57,135 nt of DNA, taken from the IMG/VR virus record IMGVR_UViG_3300035410_000105, positions 1 through 57,135 of that record, one strand, 5' to 3'. Below are positions 4,909 through 50,227 of the stretch, piece after piece. Position 1 is the first letter of the stretch. Each line of letters starts with the position of its first letter. A model generated the notes under the pieces. The model did not search any database and was not told where the DNA came from. It saw nothing but the letters and a program-made list of their open reading frames with translations. The position numbers and the translations under genes were made by a program. The DNA is from a virus.

Positions 4909-5634
4909 CTAGAGAGCCCCGCAGCGGATCTGCTTCCAGCAGAACTTCGTGATGTCCTGCCCCGTACCGTGCACAGGCCAGAAGCCGACGCCAGGCTGCC
5001 CGCTCGACCACACGCCCAGCGTCGAGCCGCCGACTTCCTTGCTGAGGTCGAGCGCAGCCGCGCCGGAGATGACGCTGTTGTGCAGCAGCAGCCGACAGGT
5101 GCTGCCGGTGAACTCGGCGCGCAGCACATCGTTTTCCGTGGGCGTGGGCATGCTGCCGTCGCCCGGGTCGAAGATGGCGTTGAAGGCGCCAAGACCGCCG
5201 GCCCATCGCACCGCTGCCGTGTAGGAGCCGGTGGGATCGACTCCCCAAAGGATCTCATAGCCATGCGCGTCGCTTGCGCTGATGCTGAAGCGCGCAAGCA
5301 GTTCGATCTCATGTGCGGCATTCGGCAACCCCGAATATCCGTAGTGCACGACCCCTTCGATGAACATATCGGGAGGCGCCGACCATAGGGCGGTGGTGGC
5401 CTGCGCGATGTTGTCATCGAAGGCCGAGCCCTCGAATCGATCTCCTGCGAAGCCTGTTGCTTCGGCAAACCCCGGAACGGTCTGCACATCCTGCCAGAGC
5501 ACCCCATCGGTCTGGCCGTTCTTCCACTTCCCGCCTTGCGAGATCGGGTTTTCGGTCGCACCGAACGTGATGATCAGGTCGTTCGATATCAAGCCCGAGC
5601 CGAACTTACCGAACGCCGAGCGCCGGATCGGCAT
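4909..5634 (-). CDS. LamG/concanavalin-like virion protein
   Basis: 241 residues from ATG 5634, ending TAG just before the repeat protein start (TAGATG). The sequence is a single beta-sandwich type domain: alternating beta strands, aromatic and Gly-rich turns (FEGSAFDDNIAQATTALW, then HEIELLARFSISASDAHGYE, then LDLSKEVGGSTLGVW), as in LamG/concanavalin-A-like carbohydrate-binding domains. No signal peptide or membrane segment. Likely a receptor- or glycan-binding component of the appendage. The fold is inferred from pattern only. Confidence 0.55.
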   Translation of the reverse strand: MPIRRSAFGKFGSGLISNDLIITFGATENPISQGGKWKNGQTDGVLWQDVQTVPGFAEATGFAGDRFEGSAFDDNIAQATTALWSAPPDMFIEGVVHYGYSGLPNAAHEIELLARFSISASDAHGYEILWGVDPTGSYTAAVRWAGGLGAFNAIFDPGDGSMPTPTENDVLRAEFTGSTCRLLLHNSVISGAAALDLSKEVGGSTLGVWSSGQPGVGFWPVHGTGQDITKFCWKQIRCGAL

Positions 5635-5637
5635 GCA

Positions 5638-6213
5638 TCACGTATAGACGTCGACATGGCCCGCAAGCAGCGTGATCGAGTTGCCGGCATTGTTCACCGA
5701 ATGCGTGCCCTTCAGGTCGAAGAGCTGCGAGGGGCCGTTGTCGAAGCCTGCGCCCGCCACGGGAGCGGTGTTGAACGGCAGCAACAGTTTGCCGCAGCCG
5801 CCAGCCGTTGCCGCCGGCGAACCGATGACGGATTCACTCTCGAACTCGCAGTTCTTCGGGAACAGCGTGGTGGAGGTGCCGCCGCCGAAGGCCTGGCAGA
5901 CGAGCTCGCCCTTCAGCTTCCAGTGCACGTTCGTCTTCGCGACGATGTTGAGCGGGATGAGGCCGGAGTCGAAGACCGCAACCGACCCCAGGAAGATTCG
6001 GAACTTGAAGGTGTCGGGCCCCGTGACGCGATTGCTGATCTGCCCGCTGAACTCGAAGCACAGGCGCTTTCCGAGGCTATCGAAGTAGCCGTCCGGCGTC
6101 TTGACCGTGAGCTGCGAGGCCGGCAGCAGGCTCGTTTCCGTCGTGCTGCTGACGAGCGCGGTGCCCGCAGTCTCGATTTCGAGAATGCGCTCGCGAAAAC
6201 CTTTGCTGCTCAT
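5638..6213 (-). CDS. predicted beta-rich virion protein
   Basis: 191 residues from ATG 6213 with GAGG about seven bases upstream. Starts MSSKGFRERILEIETAG, then a beta-rich domain (KRLCFEFSGQISNRVTGPDT, FKFRIFLGSVAVFDSGLIPL) of jelly-roll appearance. Phage proteins with this texture are usually capsid-decorating or appendage proteins. No closer family recognised. Confidence 0.55.
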   Translation of the reverse strand: MSSKGFRERILEIETAGTALVSSTTETSLLPASQLTVKTPDGYFDSLGKRLCFEFSGQISNRVTGPDTFKFRIFLGSVAVFDSGLIPLNIVAKTNVHWKLKGELVCQAFGGGTSTTLFPKNCEFESESVIGSPAATAGGCGKLLLPFNTAPVAGAGFDNGPSQLFDLKGTHSVNNAGNSITLLAGHVDVYT

Positions 6214-6778: not shown

Positions 6779-7500
6779 GGCGCGACCCGCGCCCACACGC
6801 CCGCGGCGAGCGTCTTGTCGACCGGCCAGCCGATGAGATCGGACTGCGAGCGCGGGATCTGGCAGAACTGTACGCCGCCCACGGTCTTGAGCGTCGCGCT
6901 GCACTGAAGGCCGGCGGGCACGAGGCCAATCGCGGACATCGAAGGCTTCGCGGCCGTGCCGGTGAGCTCGTAGCTGTAAGGCCCGGCCGTGAGCAGCACC
7001 GGCTGGGCGCACGCGCCGGCCGGAGCAGCTGCGGGCGCCCACGCATTCGCCGTCCAGCACGTTGGCGAGGCCGCCGCAGTCCATCCGTGCGTCTGCGTCC
7101 AGCTGCCGACGAGCGGCGCGGTGCAGACCTGCGCGCGAGTTTCGTTGGCCGGCGCGGCCGGACAGGTCGGTGTCGCATCTGCAACGACCGTCGACACGGG
7201 ATTCGCGTTCTCGCTCTCCGCGCCGGCGCTTGTGAGCGCTGTCACCGTGAAGTACCAGGTGCCCGGCGCGAGATTGTCGATCGTCGTCGAGCATGGCGAT
7301 GGCTTCGCAAGCGTCACGAACGTCGTGAGCGCGTCGACCGATTTGCCGTAGTAGAACCGGAAACCCGAGAGGTCGGTGAGCACCGTTCCGTCTGTGTTCT
7401 GCGTGGGCGGCTTGCAGGACACCGGTGCCGAGCCTGCCAGCACGGGCGGCGCTAGGCTGATGGCGAACAGCGCGAGGACCGCGACAACGAGCATGCGCAC
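6775..7500 (-). CDS. fibronectin type III domain protein with signal-like N-terminus; first gene of late operon
   Basis: 241 residues. GTG 7500 is chosen because AGGAGG sits exactly six bases upstream; an ATG two codons later is possible. Residues 1-23 (LVVAVLALFAISLAPPVLAG) look like a cleavable signal peptide. Residues about 40-110 form an FN3 domain (SGFRFYYGKS...NLAPGTWYFTVTALTSAGAE). The rest is Ala/Thr/Trp-rich with several Cys pairs. A signal peptide on a predicted virion-cassette protein is odd: it may act in the periplasm or at the surface of the host rather than in the particle. It is the first gene after the late promoter and its two terminators. Confidence 0.65.
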   Translation of the reverse strand: MRMLVVAVLALFAISLAPPVLAGSAPVSCKPPTQNTDGTVLTDLSGFRFYYGKSVDALTTFVTLAKPSPCSTTIDNLAPGTWYFTVTALTSAGAESENANPVSTVVADATPTCPAAPANETRAQVCTAPLVGSWTQTHGWTAAASPTCWTANAWAPAAAPAGACAQPVLLTAGPYSYELTGTAAKPSMSAIGLVPAGLQCSATLKTVGGVQFCQIPRSQSDLIGWPVDKTLAAGVWARVAP

Positions 7501-7518
7501 GGCGGGCCTCCTGAAACG

Positions 7519-7545
7519 AAAAAAGCCCCGGGAATGCCGGGCCCA
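7519..7545 (-). terminator. Rho-independent terminator 2 in late leader
   Basis: On the minus strand CCCGG pairs with CCGGG around a five-base loop, followed by six Ts (7524-7519). It lies downstream of the promoter at 7637-7665 and ends 18 bases before the first late gene. Confidence 0.75.
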
Positions 7546-7576
7546 GGTAGGGGGAAGTCGACGAAGAGCCAAGACG

Positions 7577-7605
7577 AAAAAACCCGGCTTTTGAGGGCCG
7601 GGCTT
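7577..7605 (-). terminator. Rho-independent terminator 1 in late leader
   Basis: Minus strand: CCCGGC, eight-base loop, GCCGGG, then TTTTTT at 7582-7577. A textbook intrinsic terminator about 25 bases after the predicted late transcription start. It would also end leftward transcripts arriving from the early operon. Confidence 0.85.
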
Positions 7606-7636
7606 GGTGCAGGCGTAGCTCGCCCGCGGGGTCGAT

Positions 7637-7665
7637 TTTGTACGCTTACGAAATTCCGGTGTCAA
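7637..7665 (-). promoter_or_regulatory. sigma70-type late promoter
   Basis: Minus strand TTGACA (7665-7660), 17-base spacer, TACAAA (7642-7637). The -35 is a perfect consensus. Predicted start near 7630, reading into terminators 1 and 2 and then the whole late region. The layout matches lambda pR' followed by tR'. Confidence 0.75.
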
Positions 7666-7710
7666 GTCAGTAAGTTGCGCTCCGCGAGGGGATGTCCTGA
7701 AAATGGCGCC

Positions 7711-7730
7711 GACTTCTCATTTGAGAAGTC
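7711..7730. promoter_or_regulatory. perfect palindrome upstream of late promoter
   Basis: GACTTCTCA-TT-TGAGAAGTC, 9-bp perfect arms, immediately after the last early-left gene and 46 bases upstream of the late -35 box. Suits a dimeric regulator site or an mRNA 3' hairpin (no T-run). Confidence 0.55.
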
Positions 7731-7737
7731 GACAACT

Positions 7738-7995
7738 TCACGGGTGCATCCGGGCCGATCCGGGGGAGTCGCCGGCGCCGCCCACGTCCACCCGGACTTC
7801 GGATGGCGCGACACCTTCGCCGATGAACTCCACGCGCCCCTCATCGATGTACTGCGTGTTCTTGATCTCGCCGTCCTTCGCAGGCGGCGCCAGGCCCCAT
7901 TGCACGTAGCCGTACAGGTACTCGACGCGCGCGGTCACGATTCCTTCGAGCCCGCTGATCTTGTCTCTGGCTTTGACGCCCAATCTGATATTCAT
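7738..7995 (-). CDS. small KOW-like protein, last gene of early-left operon
   Basis: 85 residues from ATG 7995. MNIRLGVKARDKISGLEGIV followed by TARVEYLYGYVQWGLAPPA looks like a small SH3/KOW-type beta barrel ('DKISGLEGIVTAR...'), a conserved small phage protein family of unknown role. KOW-like barrels occur in proteins touching RNA polymerase or ribosomes, and the gene sits directly before the predicted antiterminated late promoter, but a link is only a guess. Overlaps the HTH gene by four bases. Confidence 0.65.
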   Translation of the reverse strand: MNIRLGVKARDKISGLEGIVTARVEYLYGYVQWGLAPPAKDGEIKNTQYIDEGRVEFIGEGVAPSEVRVDVGGAGDSPGSARMHP

Positions 7996-8189
7996 CGATT
8001 GCTCCTCGCTTGTGATGTGGATTTTTTCGCGCGGCCGCCGTCCTCGGCAGTGAGGCCCCCGCGCTTCAGCACGTGACCGACGCCCGCACAGGACATCCCG
8101 AACTCGTCAGCGAGACGTGGGATTGTGCGGCCGGCGCGGAAGCCTGCGCAGATTCGTCCATCGCGCTTGACCCGCTCAGACTGCTTCAC
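7992..8189 (-). CDS. small helix-turn-helix protein
   Basis: 65 residues from GTG 8189. Residues 12-46 form a resolvase/Mor-like HTH (ICAGFRAGRTIPRLADEFGM then SCAGVGHVLKRGGL) followed by a basic tail. Such short HTH proteins, ending 'LKR.GLT..DGG.AKK', occur in many phages and probably bind DNA as regulators. Located just before the late promoter region. Confidence 0.65.
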   Translation of the reverse strand: MKQSERVKRDGRICAGFRAGRTIPRLADEFGMSCAGVGHVLKRGGLTAEDGGRAKKSTSQARSNR

Positions 8190-8808
8190 TGACGGCCTCG
8201 CGTTCGGAAACCTTTCGCTGGATCATGCCTAGCGCGGTTCCGAGCCATGCCTGATACACGCACTTCAATCGATCGAAGCGCTCGTAGAGCTTGCCGTTCC
8301 ACACGTGTGGCTCGACGTGCAGGTAGATCGGGTAGAGCCTCGACTGCGCCTCGAAGTACGGCCGGTGCTGATCCTCGTCGAGCACGAGCTGCGCCAGTTC
8401 CGGCAGGTAGAAGCGCGCGGCGCCGCCAATGCCGACGACCTGATGCGGCCATTGGTGCTGCCTGCGGAACAGCAGCGCCTCACCGAGCAGCCCTTCGTAC
8501 AGTTCCCAGAACGTGTCGGGCGTGCGATCCCCGGCGAGGCTGAACTGCGCGGCAAGCCAGGGCAACCGCGGCACACCGCCTGCCGCCTGCCCAAGCTCCG
8601 CATGCGACCAAGCGGGATAACGCACGACGCGCGTCTGGTGACCCTTCACGCTTTCGTAGATCGGGCGGCCGTTGTCGCGTTTCAGTTCATCGCCTCCGCG
8701 CCTGCGCCTGCGCACGCTCGGCCCGCTGTCGGGTGTCGATCCGCCGGCAATGCGCTTCAGGTCGATGCCCTTGGCGGCGGCGAGGACTATCAGATCTTCG
8801 GCAAGCAT
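8176..8808 (-). CDS. hypothetical protein upstream of late promoter (candidate late regulator)
   Basis: 210 residues from ATG 8808 (GAGGG a few bases upstream); an ATG ten codons earlier is possible. A short N-terminal helix (EDLIVLAAAKGIDLKRIAG) is followed by a basic RRRRRGG stretch, and then a mostly helical body containing YLHVEPHVWNGKLYERFDRL and a C-terminal WLGTALGMIQRKV helix. No enzyme motif. Not a recognisable lambda Q. Its size, basic patch and place (third gene before a promoter-terminator pair) make it the best candidate in this operon for a late activator or antiterminator, which remains unproven. Confidence 0.6.
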   Translation of the reverse strand: MLAEDLIVLAAAKGIDLKRIAGGSTPDSGPSVRRRRRGGDELKRDNGRPIYESVKGHQTRVVRYPAWSHAELGQAAGGVPRLPWLAAQFSLAGDRTPDTFWELYEGLLGEALLFRRQHQWPHQVVGIGGAARFYLPELAQLVLDEDQHRPYFEAQSRLYPIYLHVEPHVWNGKLYERFDRLKCVYQAWLGTALGMIQRKVSEREAVSEAV

Positions 8809-13932: not shown

Positions 13933-14177
13933 CCCGCCCGCACTTCGTTGCGCTGCTGGAAACGGCGCGCGGCGTGCCAGTCGATGAGATATGCGTGGAG
14001 CTTCTCGAGCGTGAGCACGCCCGGATTCTTGATGCGGCCGTAGGCGATGGACTTGAGCCATTCCATTTCGACCTCGGCGCCCTCGGCGATCTCGCGCAAC
14101 GGGGTGTCGCCACGGTCGGCGAGCAGCCTTTTTGTGCGTGTCAGCAGGGATTCTGTCAGGTCGGGCTCATTTGGCAT
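13929..14177 (-). CDS. Cro-like regulator
   Basis: 82 residues from ATG 14177. Residues 5-70 are a lambda-repressor-type HTH: SLLTRTKRLLADRGDTPLRE, then IAEGAEVEMEWLKSIAYGRI. First gene of the early-left operon, divergent from the repressor gene, with an operator (14186-14201) in between. Expected role: binds the same operators and shifts the switch to lytic growth. Its start lies only nine bases from the operator, so bound repressor would block this gene directly. Confidence 0.75.
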   Translation of the reverse strand: MPNEPDLTESLLTRTKRLLADRGDTPLREIAEGAEVEMEWLKSIAYGRIKNPGVLTLEKLHAYLIDWHAARRFQQRNEVRAG

Positions 14178-14199
14178 GCCGACCAGTGTAGTTTACGAC
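14171..14199 (+). promoter_or_regulatory. candidate repressor promoter
   Basis: TTGGCA (14171-14176), 17-base spacer, TACGAC (14194-14199). Transcription would start near 14206, just upstream of the repressor gene. The -10 box lies inside operator O1, so the repressor may control itself. Confidence 0.4.
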
Positions 14200-14201
14200 A
14201 C
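14186..14201. promoter_or_regulatory. operator O1
   Basis: GTGTAGTTTACGACAC: 12 of 16 positions are palindromic. Same design as O2 and O3 on the other side of the repressor gene. Lies between the divergent Cro-like and repressor genes. Confidence 0.6.
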
Positions 14202-14249
14202 GCTATGGTTGCAACCACCTACACGGCGCCTCCTTTACCGTACGGGGTC

Positions 14250-14654
14250 ATGGGGAATGGCCTACACAAAACTGGGCAAGAACACGCGCTGTCCCGTCCG
14301 GAGGACATTCTTGCGCGCAATCTGCGTCACGCCTTCTCGAAACGGAAGCTCAGTGCGAGGTCAGTCGCGGATGCGATCGGTGTGTCGAACAAAACCGTGA
14401 GCAACATGCTCAACGGCACGGGAGCCTCTCAGCTCGACAAGCTCTCTGCCGTGGCAGCGTTCATCAAGATCCCTCTGTGGCAGTTACTGTGTCCGGCCAT
14501 CGAAATATCTCAGAAGAGCAATGCCGCGATGCACGAACTGGTTGAACAGTTCGTGAACCTCTCGGAAGTTGGCCAGGCCTCGGTCCGGCGCGTGGTGAAA
14601 GCGGAGTCCGCCCTCGCCAAGACCGATTCAGATACAGCCCCGGACGCATCCTAA
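14250..14654 (+). CDS. CI-like repressor without a self-cleavage domain
   Basis: 134 residues from ATG 14250; an ATG at 14205 would add 15 residues but falls at the predicted transcription start. Residues 18-75 are an HTH_3 fold (EDILARNLRHAFSKRKLSAR, SVADAIGVSNKTVSNMLNGT). The remaining 60 residues are helical (MHELVEQFVNLSEVGQASVR) and end in an acidic tail. There is no S24/LexA-type peptidase with Ser-Lys dyad, so RecA-driven autoproteolysis, the lambda way of induction, is not expected. Operators flank it on both sides. Confidence 0.75.
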   Translation: MGNGLHKTGQEHALSRPEDILARNLRHAFSKRKLSARSVADAIGVSNKTVSNMLNGTGASQLDKLSAVAAFIKIPLWQLLCPAIEISQKSNAAMHELVEQFVNLSEVGQASVRRVVKAESALAKTDSDTAPDAS

Positions 14655-26774: not shown

Positions 26775-26955
26775 AACCGTGATGATCGGCAACGAAGTCA
26801 CGCTCACCGTTCTCGGCGTGAAGGGCAACCAGGTGCGCATCGGCATCAATGCGCCGAAGAGCGTGCCGGTCCATCGCGAAGAGATCTACGAGCGCATCAA
26901 GCGCGAGCTCGCCGGCGGGGAAGTGAACGGCAACCTGGCGAAGCCGGCGGCATGA
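26746..26955 (+). CDS. csrA: CsrA homologue, translational regulator
   Basis: 69 residues, full CsrA length. [20 protein letters not shown] then [20 protein letters not shown] and [14 protein letters not shown] match the family end to end; the RNA-binding Arg near residue 44 equivalent and the VHR-EEIY-IK C-terminal block are present. CsrA dimers bind GGA-containing stem-loops near ribosome sites of host mRNAs and change metabolism, motility and biofilm genes. Its own leader has AAGGGGATAGCG before ATG, so self-repression is possible. The adjacent HerA-like gene overlaps it (ATGA). Confidence 0.93.
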
Positions 26956-28805
26956 GCAAGCTCATCCTCGGCGAGTGGATCGACACGAAGGCCGGCATCT
27001 ACCTCGATCTCGCCCGCCTCATCGCAACGCGCGCCCTGCTGCAGGCCGAGAGCGGTCATGGCAAGAGCTGGGCCTTGCGCAAGATCCTCGAGGCGACGCA
27101 CGGCCACGTCCAGCAGATCATCGTCGACGTCGAGGGCGAGTTCGCAACGCTTCGCGAGAAGTGCGACCTGATCATCGCCGCGGCCCACGACGGCGACGTC
27201 ATCGTTCACCCGAAGACCGCACGGCTGCTCGCGACCCGGCTGCTCGAGACGCAGGCTTCCGCGGTGCTCGACCTCTCCGAGCTGAAGTCGCCAGATCGGC
27301 ACGCCGTCGTCCGTCTGCTCTTCGAATCGCTGATCGATGCGCCCAAGGCGCTGCGCCATCCGGTGCTGGTGGTGCTCGACGAGGCGCAGCTATTCGCGCC
27401 CGAGAAGGGCCAGGGCGAAAGCGAGGCGCTCGACGCCGTCGTCGACATGGCCAGCCGCGGCCGCAAGCGCGGGCTCGCGCTCCTCGCCGCGACCCAGCGC
27501 ATCGGCAAGCTCCACAAGAGCGTCGCCGCGGAGCTGAAGAACAAACTCATCGGCGCCGCGGGCCTCGACGTCGACGTAAAGCGCGCCGCCTTCGACCTCG
27601 GGATGACACCGAAGGACGCCCTCGCCGCCCTGCGCGTGCTCAAGCCCGGCGAGTTCTACGCGTTCGGCCCGGCGTTCCATCAGGTCAATCCGCGTGTGAT
27701 GCGCGTTGGCGCGATCGAGACGACGCACCCGAAGGTCGGGCATTCGCAGAAGGTCGCGCCGCCGAAGCCGAGCGAGGCGATCAAGGCGCTGCTGCCGAAG
27801 CTCGCTGACCTGCCGCGCGAAGCCGAAGAAGAGGCGCGCACGATCGATGACCTGAAGCGCGAGCTCGCCGGCGCAAAGCGCGAATTGAAGCTAGCGCAGC
27901 GCGCGCAGCCCAAAGCGGAGCCGGCTCCGAAGGTCGACGCCGGCGCCGCGCGCCGGGACGCGGCCGCCATCAAGCGCCTGCGCGGCGTGATCGAGGATCT
28001 CATGAAGTTCGTGGTGAAGATCAATGCGACAGGGTTCGCGAAGGACGCCGGCGTCGACCCGGCAGATTTGCGTAAGGCGATCGACTCGGCCGTCGGCCAG
28101 GCCATGAAGCTCGTTGAGTCGAAGGCTGGCGAGCGCGAGAAGGCGATGCAGGCGCTGCAGCGTGATGCCGGGCGGCTCATCGCGGCCGCGCAGAAACTGC
28201 TCGCGGATGATCCTGTTGAGTTGACCGTCGACGTGAAGCATCAGCAACCGTTCGCGGTGACGCCGGCGGCAGCGCGCGGCTCGTCATCCGCCTCGCGCCC
28301 GGCACGCGCGAGCAGCGAGCCGCCCGCCGAAGGCCTCACAGCACCCCAGCAGAAGCTGCTCGACTCGCTCGCGTGGCTTGAGTCTCACGGCATTCACCCG
28401 GCGCGAAAAGAGACGCTCGCCGCCATCGCCGGCGTCAGCCCGACATCGGGCGGCTATTTCAACAATCTCGGCGCGCTGCGCAACCAGATGCAGATGATCG
28501 ACTACCCGACACCGGGCGAGGTGGCATTCACGGATGCAGGACGCACTGCCGCGCGCCTCCATGACGACGGCCGCGCCGTTCACGAGCACTGGCTGGAGAT
28601 TGTCACCGCGCCACAACGCAAGATCCTCGAAAAGCTGGTCGAGGCGCATCCCACGCCGATGAGCAAGGACTCTCTGGCCGACCAGATCGGCGTGTCCTCG
28701 ACGAGCGGTGGCTACTTCAATAACCTGGGATACCTGCGCACGATTGGCGCGCTCGACTATCCGCAGAAGGGCTTCGTGTTGCTCACCAAGCACGTGATGC
28801 CGTGA
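26952..28805 (+). CDS. HerA-like (DUF87) ATPase with C-terminal repeated winged helices
   Basis: 617 residues from ATG 26952. Walker A is [12 protein letters not shown] (GHGKS at 35-39) and Walker B is [11 protein letters not shown] (about 138-148), followed by [20 protein letters not shown], as in HerA/FtsK-type motor ATPases of the DUF87 group. A long coiled-coil segment (about 290-330) follows. The C-terminus carries two copies, about 86 residues apart, of a winged-helix unit with [17 protein letters not shown] and [17 protein letters not shown]. HerA motors move DNA and pair with nucleases in repair and in several defence systems. Role in the phage is unknown. Confidence 0.85.
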
Positions 28806-31115: not shown

Positions 31116-31345
31116 GCCTGCTCACGCCCAAAGAGTTGCACGAGTTGACCGACTGCGCGCGCGCTGCTGGGCAGATCGAGTGGCTGCGCCAGCGCTCGTG
31201 GGTGTTCGATGTCGGCATGACCGGCCGGCCGAAGGTTGACAGGGCCGAGTACGACCGGCACATGATTGGCGGCCAGCAGAAGCAACCCAAGAAGAAAGGC
31301 CCGGACACCTCCTGGTATGGGAAAACGTCGTCAACGCAGCCGTAA
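31112..31345 (+). CDS. DUF4224 protein, excisionase candidate
   Basis: 77 residues from GTG 31112 (GTGA). LLTPKELHELTDCARAAGQI, EWLRQRSWVFDVGMTGRPKV is the DUF4224 pattern ('L...El.eLTg...p..Q..wL...g..f.v...G.p.v'), a small winged-helix group that sits next to integrases in prophages. Overlaps the integrase start by 29 bases. Likely binds attachment-site arms and controls excision. Confidence 0.75.
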   Translation: MSLLTPKELHELTDCARAAGQIEWLRQRSWVFDVGMTGRPKVDRAEYDRHMIGGQQKQPKKKGPDTSWYGKTSSTQP

Positions 31346-32315
31346 CCTTCCGCAGAACATGCGGGAGAGTCACGGCGCCTACTACCTGACGCACTACGTC
31401 GGCGGCAAGCAGAAATGGGAGCCGCTGGGGCGCGACATCACCGCGGCCTTCGCGAAGTACCGCGAGCTGACGGGCGTTCAGTCGCGCATCGGCAGAACGG
31501 TGCGTGACCTCGTTGTGCAGTTCGACCTCGAGGTGGTGCCTGCCCTGCGGCCGAACACGCAGCGCGCCTACCGGTGCTGGATGCCGGCCATCCTGAAGAC
31601 GTGGGGCGAGATGCGGCTGGAGGATCTCGAGCAGCCGGACGTCGCGAGCTTCCTCGACACCTACCCGCGCAAAGTCACCGCCAACCGGGTCGTCACCCTG
31701 CTCGTCACGATGCTGAAGAAGGCGAAACGCTGGGGATGGGTTAAGGAAAATCGCATCGCGGGCATCGAACAGCACCGCGAGAGCGCCCGCAGGCGGGTCA
31801 TTCGCGACAGCGAGTGGCTGGCCCTGCTCGCCGCAGCAGACGGCCAGTATCGGCTCCTGTTTCGTCTGGCGCGATTCACAGCCCTGCGTCGGTCCGACGT
31901 GTGTGCGCTCACCTGGGGCTGCGAGCAGGACGGGCGTCTCGTCGTGCACACCATCAAGACGCAGGCGCCGATCTCCATCGCGATTCGCGGCGAGCTCGCG
32001 CAGATCCTCGCGGAGTTGAAGCGCGGCATCCTGCCTTTCCCGACGCGGCGGCTCTTCTGCGTGGAGGGCGGACGTGAGCTATCGCCGAAGATGCTCGGCT
32101 ACCACTTCAACCGCATCCGCCTGGCCGCCGGGCTGCGCTCGATCAACTTCCACGACATCCGCCGCACCCGGCTTACCGAGGTCGCGGAGAAGTACGGCCC
32201 GCGCTTCGCGCAGCGTCTCGCCGCCCACAAGGATGCGCGAACCACCGAGGGCTACATCGTGCCGGAGGTCGTCATGATCGACTGGCCGGATGAGGAAATA
32301 AGAGGCACGGCCTGA
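31317..32315 (+). CDS. int: tyrosine-type integrase
   Basis: 332 residues from ATG 31317; upstream in-frame codons overlap the DUF4224 gene. N-terminal arm-binding part (SHGAYYLTHYVGGKQKWEPL), core-binding domain about 60-150, catalytic domain about 160-320. Catalytic set: R191 (ALRRSD), K214 (HTIKTQ), H279 and R282 (FHDIRRT), H304 (AAHKD), Y313 (EGYIVPE). Integrates and, with an excisionase, removes the prophage. Downstream non-coding DNA holds repeats that may be attP arm sites. Confidence 0.93.
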   Translation: MGKRRQRSRNLPQNMRESHGAYYLTHYVGGKQKWEPLGRDITAAFAKYRELTGVQSRIGRTVRDLVVQFDLEVVPALRPNTQRAYRCWMPAILKTWGEMRLEDLEQPDVASFLDTYPRKVTANRVVTLLVTMLKKAKRWGWVKENRIAGIEQHRESARRRVIRDSEWLALLAAADGQYRLLFRLARFTALRRSDVCALTWGCEQDGRLVVHTIKTQAPISIAIRGELAQILAELKRGILPFPTRRLFCVEGGRELSPKMLGYHFNRIRLAAGLRSINFHDIRRTRLTEVAEKYGPRFAQRLAAHKDARTTEGYIVPEVVMIDWPDEEIRGTA

Positions 32316-49888: not shown

Positions 49889-50227
49889 CTACTTCTTCTT
49901 GCCGCCTGCGGCGGCCGCGGCATCCGCATCGGCCTTGATACGCGCCGCCTCGGCGGCCGCAGGATCGATCTGCGGAATGAAGTGCGGATCTGTTTCCGCC
50001 TGAGGCCGCGGCCCGGGCGGGTCGATGCGTTCGGCTTTGCCACAGGCGATGAGCTCGGCTGCGAAGGATCGCGAGACCTGCATCTTTTCGCCGATCTCGG
50101 CGGACTTGCGTCCCTGCAGAACGAAGCCTGCGGTGACCTGCACCCATTCACGCGTGTTTTTCATCATCATGTCGTTCACGAGTTCATCGAAAGACCGAGC
50201 CGTCGTCAGTGACAGCGGCTCGGACAT
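49889..50227 (-). CDS. small head-region protein, gpFI-like candidate
   Basis: 112 residues from ATG 50227 (a longer upstream ORF is shadow). SFDELVNDMMMKNTREWVQV, KSAEIGEKMQVSRSFAAELI helices (HTH-like), then a Pro/Ala/Lys tail ending AAAAAGGKKK. Place and charge pattern suit a DNA-packaging helper of the gpFI type, without clear homology. Confidence 0.5.
   Translation of the reverse strand: MSEPLSLTTARSFDELVNDMMMKNTREWVQVTAGFVLQGRKSAEIGEKMQVSRSFAAELIACGKAERIDPPGPRPQAETDPHFIPQIDPAAAEAARIKADADAAAAAGGKKK

Follow-up and report, generated by a model that had tools for sequence, protein, structure and literature searches.

Organization of the Locus

The window analyzed in this study is an entire IMG/VR virus record of 57,135 bases with a G+C content of 64.5%. 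It is a temperate phage, and its main gene groups are arranged as follows:

31266-32315, plus strand: integrase
14047-14400, plus strand: repressor-like HTH gene, without a PHROG match
14177 towards 7738, minus strand: Cro-like gene, HNH, O-like replication gene, DnaB, and RuvC-like resolvase
7500-1 and 57135-37853, minus strand: structural genes (terminase, portal, head, tape measure, tail protein J)

The TerS gene spans both record ends with a frame slip, so that the map is best read as circular and opened inside this gene; the record is probably such an opened circle with a small assembly error. With the ends joined, an assumption supported by TerS reading across them, the late region runs from 7500 to 1 and then from 57135 to 37853, about 26.8 kb in all, and the figure of about 31 kb given previously was overstated. 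Among named phages, the closest TerL is that of VP882 (42% identical). Elsewhere, in the early/accessory region, 26952-28805 on the plus strand encodes a 617-residue HerA/DUF87-like ATPase with a possible C-terminal HTH.

The region between the early and the structural genes contains the following features:

8808-8176, minus strand: protein X, 210 amino acids, start ATG at 8808; proposed Q-type antiterminator
8189-7992, minus strand: 65-residue HTH protein whose gene overlaps the last bases of the X gene; putative accessory factor that binds DNA or RNA polymerase
7995-7738, minus strand: 85-residue KOW-like protein, PHROG 16275 (unknown function), E = 2e-16
7710-7731: perfect 22-bp dyad CGACTTCTCA-AA-TGAGAAGTCG (10 + 10 bp, 2-bp spacer), downstream of the KOW-like gene and ahead of the promoter
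7665-7637, minus strand: proposed late promoter TTGACA-17-TACAAA
7665-7660, minus strand: -35 element TTGACA
7642-7637, minus strand: -10 element TACAAA, after a 17-nt spacer
7605-7577, minus strand: intrinsic terminator t1, AAGCCCGGC-CCTCAAAA-GCCGGGTTTTTT
7541-7519, minus strand: intrinsic terminator t2, CCCGG-CATTC-CCGGG-GC-TTTTTT
7512-7507, minus strand: Shine-Dalgarno sequence AGGAGG of the first late gene
7500-6775, minus strand: first late gene, start GTG at 7500, with an Fn3-like domain and a signal-peptide-like start

A sequence-only reading of this DNA had described a promoter followed by two terminators, and our analysis confirmed these features along with their coordinates, spacing, and minus-strand orientation. 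Transcription would start near 7630, which places t1 and t2 about 25 and 89 nt downstream. Promoter, terminator, and late operon follow one another in the window, with the candidate regulator encoded just upstream.

Protein X: Homologues and Sequence Searches

The coding score of X is positive. Four diverged homologues (39–60% identity) were found in IMG/VR; identity to the X of the window is 54% for L006/L017, 58% for L028, 42% for L027, and 39% for L040. Five X loci were compared, namely the window, G003 (L017), L028 (G012), L027, and L040. The relatives G003, G006, and G010 are IMG/VR contigs related by TerL.

Searches of Pfam, PHROGs, NCBIfam, and the PDB with X returned nothing significant, and 120,000 phage and plasmid records gave 0 matches. 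By tblastn, none was found in phages (E up to 10) or in plasmids, and the X of L028 likewise found no match in phages. A DNA-level search for the whole switch in 50,697 phage records also returned 0 matches. Viral and genome contigs yielded nothing with X alone as the query, nor did genome contigs with a two-sequence X alignment; the further viral relatives were reached only with sub-alignments and, later, a four-sequence alignment.

The known Q families were then compared individually. The lambda Q family PF03589 (phrog_127) has no match in the window or its relatives, and the 82 Q family PF06530 (phrog_304) has none to X. X is also not among the matches of a phrog_79 family search, which are the Q-like gene of G010 and a window gene at 50033-50206 (minus strand); the latter encodes a small HTH protein in the head region, adjoins the major head gene, and matches phrog_79 weakly. 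The profile of X scored 13.7 against ten 82-type Qs, with a mean of 13.1 for shuffled columns. Against lambda Q the comparison stayed at the level of column shuffles, and known Qs did not rank above decoys. The top-scoring alignments of X with lambda Q, VP882 Q, and the 82-type profile all fall on a C-terminal W-containing stretch; this stretch was rejected as a link to Q because decoys score higher. X has no zinc-finger cysteines. By profile and family searches, X belongs to neither the lambda Q nor the 82 Q sequence family, and the earlier observation that no known Q is recognizable by sequence holds.

Predicted Fold of X

AlphaFold was run with two X sequences as input, and one of five models was usable. 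This model has a mean pLDDT of 63.6 and a pTM of 0.57; the other four reached a pLDDT of 33–37. In a viral structure library, the best fold match of the usable model is annotated as "Antitermination protein Q" of Siphoviridae sp. ctpLW14 (probability 1.00, E = 2e-3, TM-score 0.48, at the model pLDDT of 63.6). The second match, the unnamed protein M4MCI9, also has a probability of 1.00, and the remaining listed viral matches do not exceed 0.28. In the PDB, the highest listed TM-score for this model belongs to lambda Q in the loading complex (7ubn_Q; 0.38 both ways, E = 3.6, probability 0.18). The model of the G003 homologue (pLDDT 38) gave no Q match. One positive and one uninformative result are suggestive of a Q-like fold for X.

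Gene Order at the X Loci

In each of the five loci, the genes immediately downstream of X are late or terminase genes. The terminases behind it are of the lambda type, the phrog_3717/phrog_2 type, and others, so the presence of X is not simply tied to a single kind of late module. Four of the five loci have an intrinsic terminator in the stretch from X to the first late gene.

The closest relative, G003, has a TerL that is 80% identical to that of the window. Its gene order is RusA, X, two HTH genes (the first of which overlaps X), t1 (6106), t2 (6163), and a late gene with an Fn3-like relative. Homologues of the first late gene of the window stand after the terminators in G003 and in L004. 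L028, in which only X and the HTH gene are shared with the window (proteins compared), shows the order X, HTH gene (76 residues), promoter-like TTGACTTGACGGCCCGGAAAATTCCGATAAT, t1 (6535), and TerS from about 6583, with a TerL of the phrog_3717/phrog_2 kind. The layout of promoter, terminator, and late operon with X upstream is found in G003 and L028 as well as in the window. L027 shares only X with the window (proteins compared) and continues with a 71-residue ORF, a terminator (2110), a small gene, a TerS-like gene, and TerL.

The exception is L040, the sole locus examined after the terminator pattern had been noticed. There, X (5001-5873, with an 80-residue C-terminal extension) has a RusA-like gene before it and a TerS-like gene after it, and the 30-nt gap between X and the latter contains no intrinsic terminator; the signals may lie inside the X gene. 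X is preceded by a resolvase gene in both the window and G003, and by the RusA-like gene in L040.

Other relatives carry different genes at this position. In G006 (L020; TerL 66% identical), a RusA-like gene is followed by a 193-residue protein, tandem terminators (16593 and 16709), and a late gene. The 193-residue protein (L020 15731-16312) is unrelated to X and has no database match; its position is that of a Q, and it is possibly another antiterminator. In G010 (L014; TerL 59% identical), a gene at 7814-8314 shortly before the late genes weakly matches phrog_79, "anti-termination protein Q-like" (E = 1e-4), and a second, broken match lies about 0.7 kb upstream. These differing genes before the late operon in related phages point to an exchangeable site, of which X is one occupant.

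We regard it as reasonably probable that the locus is a Q-type switch, in which X would modify polymerase at the 7665 promoter and act as a processive antiterminator. Among the three candidates named at the outset, X gained from the conservation of the module and from one structural match.

Neighboring HTH and KOW-Like Proteins

In three of the five loci (window, G003, and L028), the HTH gene directly adjoins X or overlaps it. The window protein has weak Mor/late-activator similarity, and its G003 counterpart has a Pfam match to sigma-70 region 4 (E = 7e-8). The gene contact and the sigma-70 match would suit an alternative in which the HTH protein recognizes the late promoter and remodels RNA polymerase, with X as its partner, in the manner of GafY/GafZ. 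GafZ has an HTH of the sigma-factor kind, and its palindromic site lies between -35 and -10 (PMC11150451); the spacer of the L028 promoter holds the dyad CGGAA-AA-TTCCG, that of the window the imperfect CGGAATTTCG. However, no HTH gene adjoins X in L027 and L040, the coding score of the window HTH gene is slightly negative, and 65 residues are few for an antiterminator; we consider this alternative unlikely. As a candidate, the HTH protein retains its standing as a frequent companion of X (three of the five loci), probably in an accessory role. Possibly, it supplies the DNA-binding part of a split Q.

The KOW-like protein, which had also been put forward, found no support. It has no KOW family match and was absent from the other X loci checked; its relatives occur in unrelated phages and in G004, and those phages lack X. 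It was rejected as the antiterminator on the missing family match and its lack of linkage to X elsewhere, and it probably lies outside the switch.

Tandem Terminators

A strict terminator was defined as a perfect stem of at least 5 pairs, with at least 5 G-C pairs, and at least 5 T. Exactly two sites in the entire 57-kb record satisfy this definition, namely t1 and t2. Shuffles of the record (n = 100) contained 0.2 on average, and none contained a tandem pair. In a loose scan, four terminator-like sites were found versus 4.2 expected, and the loose count alone is not significant; the promoter was missed by the loose scan, which requires a T at position 6. In the interval from X to the first late gene, the window and G003 each have two strict terminators, and L028 and L027 one each. 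Shuffled intervals with at least one strict terminator were rare (window, 13 of 1000; G003, 20 of 1000; L028, 5 of 1000; L027, 0 of 1000), and two in one shuffled interval were never seen in 1000 shuffles per locus.

About 19 nt separate t2 from GTG 7500 of the first late gene. This leaves no room for a promoter, and transcripts from upstream must cross both t1 and t2 to enter the late operon. A promoter that fires into two strong terminators would make sense if readthrough were regulated.

Tandem terminators are common at operon borders, and t1 and t2 could be ordinary insulators between early and late genes, with late expression by leakage or from other promoters and with the promoter-like sequence a chance or minor element. 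The weak promoter matches elsewhere (about 7 of 12 positions in G003, unclear in L027) and the appearance of a TTGACA promoter somewhere in the record in 13 of 100 shuffles agree with such a view. Against it, no promoter fits between t2 and the first late gene, the whole late operon would be starved by strong terminators, the promoter and the terminators lie within 60 nt of each other, and the conservation of X would be left unexplained. We judge mere insulation to be quite improbable. The plan of lambda pR'-tR', which had been recognized from the sequence, is well supported by position, by the strict terminator statistics, and by the layouts of G003, G012 (L028), and G006.

A further terminator lies within the late region:

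48614-48590, minus strand: internal late intrinsic terminator between two genes

It is found at the same gene boundary in the identical G002 and the diverged G004. Because tail genes are located downstream of this terminator, they too would be served by a processive antiterminator.

Promoter and Leader

A TTGACA with an acceptable -10 element occurs once in the record, compared to 0.14 expected. A second possible -10 element, CAAAAT (7640-7635), overlaps TACAAA and would give a 19-nt spacer. The window and L028 have TGACTTGAC in common, in both cases exactly 64 nt before t1, and the score of a wider local alignment of the two promoter regions was reached by 2 of 500 shuffles. The promoter regions of G003 and L027 showed no significant likeness to that of the window at the proper position.

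A -10-like sigma-dependent pause element is absent from the window leader (no hexamer with A2 and T6), and the L028 leader has none either, with AAAGGT (2 of 6) as the only candidate; G003 alone has such an element (TAAACT). The missing element in the window and L028 implies that X needs no sigma-dependent pause or that the start site is misplaced. Upstream of the promoter, the dyad at 7710-7731 is predicted to form a strong hairpin as RNA (fold z -3.9) and is a candidate operator, processing site, or weak terminator; a repeated operator was ruled out, as the dyad is present in the window as a single copy.

From 14177 up to the switch, the early genes form an uninterrupted minus-strand series. 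Together with the leader lacking a -10-like pause element, this would fit an N-like factor: X would load on the early transcript and carry the early polymerase through t1 and t2, and the 7665 promoter would be minor. The near-consensus promoter at a lambda-like place just before t1, and the identical placement of TGACTTGAC relative to t1 in the window and L028, argue against this, and we find it very unlikely. Antitermination by the leader RNA alone, without a protein, as at the HK022 put sites, is hardly credible: the window leader does form a 7-bp hairpin (7627-7609) adjoining the t1 hairpin (z -3.1), but this hairpin is not found in the G003 and L028 leaders, which argues against an RNA-only mechanism, and the second hairpin would be t1 itself.

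Proposed Mechanism

In the Q-type switch that we favor, the late promoter (7665-7637) would probably be active without phage factors and give an RNA of about 50–110 nt ending at t1 or t2. The two terminators would also halt early transcripts arriving from upstream. X, made from the early operon, would load on RNA polymerase at or near the late promoter, possibly assisted by the co-encoded HTH protein. The modified polymerase would pass t1, t2, and, if processive, the internal terminator at about 48614, and would transcribe about 27 kb of head and tail genes.

More tentatively, X may form a new family without a sequence link to lambda Q, 82 Q, 21 Q, AlpA, or GafZ, as part of a split Q with a sigma-region-4-like HTH that loads without a sigma-dependent pause element; we hold this full set of properties to be doubtful. 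The earlier suggestion of a new antiterminator family is plausible as such, and we infer it rather than observe it.

Comparison to Known Antitermination Systems

Lambda Q, 82 Q, 21 Q, AlpA, and GafZ share little or no sequence, so that every further antiterminator family is a test of whether solutions other than the "nozzle in the RNA exit channel" exist. X would be a compact case, with a promoter, two terminators, and two to three candidate genes in 1.4 kb, and with four natural variants. If X works without a sigma-dependent pause, pausing would be separated from loading. In practical terms, if the proposal is true, late-gene switches would become recognizable in phages without a findable Q.

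The published GafY/GafZ system of Caulobacter consists of an activator and an antiterminator that act together on a phage-derived late cluster (PMC11150451). By its published description, it is like the window in having two co-encoded proteins, one with a sigma-like HTH, and differs in that the GTA terminators come after the first gene and are long repeats (PMC11150451).

In Pseudomonas, AlpA acts at PalpB and PA0807, where a promoter is followed by intrinsic terminators (PMC7969949, PMC9371919), and the first terminator of PA0807 begins 26 bp downstream of the start (PMC7969949). The window shares the order of promoter and terminators and the distance to the first terminator, and AlpA, too, is without sequence similarity to Q. 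Q and AlpA require a sigma-dependent -10-like pause element (PMC9371919). The window leader, in contrast, has no such element, the AlpA motif GGGACGN5GGTA is absent from the promoter spacer (7659-7643), and X has no database match.

The 82-type Qs (phrog_304; 82, PY54, VP882, and phiHAP-1) are of similar length to X and are likewise encoded directly after a resolvase gene (rus/rusA) and before the late genes; in phage 82 and PPompW, it is Q that occupies the position that X has after the resolvase. The profile comparison of X, however, does not rise above shuffled columns, and VP882 and phiHAP-1 have TerL proteins 40–42% identical to that of the window, yet X differs from their Q.

Compared to lambda, X lacks sequence similarity to Q and its zinc-finger cysteines, and the window has two terminators and no visible sigma-pause element. 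Lambda Q gives the best PDB TM-score of the X model (0.38; E = 3.6, probability 0.18). As in lambda pR'-tR', the early product is encoded last before the late promoter, a terminator lies just after the start, and a long late operon follows. By analogy, the switch would work like lambda pR'-tR'-Q, the rus-Q arrangement of phage 82, and Pseudomonas AlpA at PA0807.
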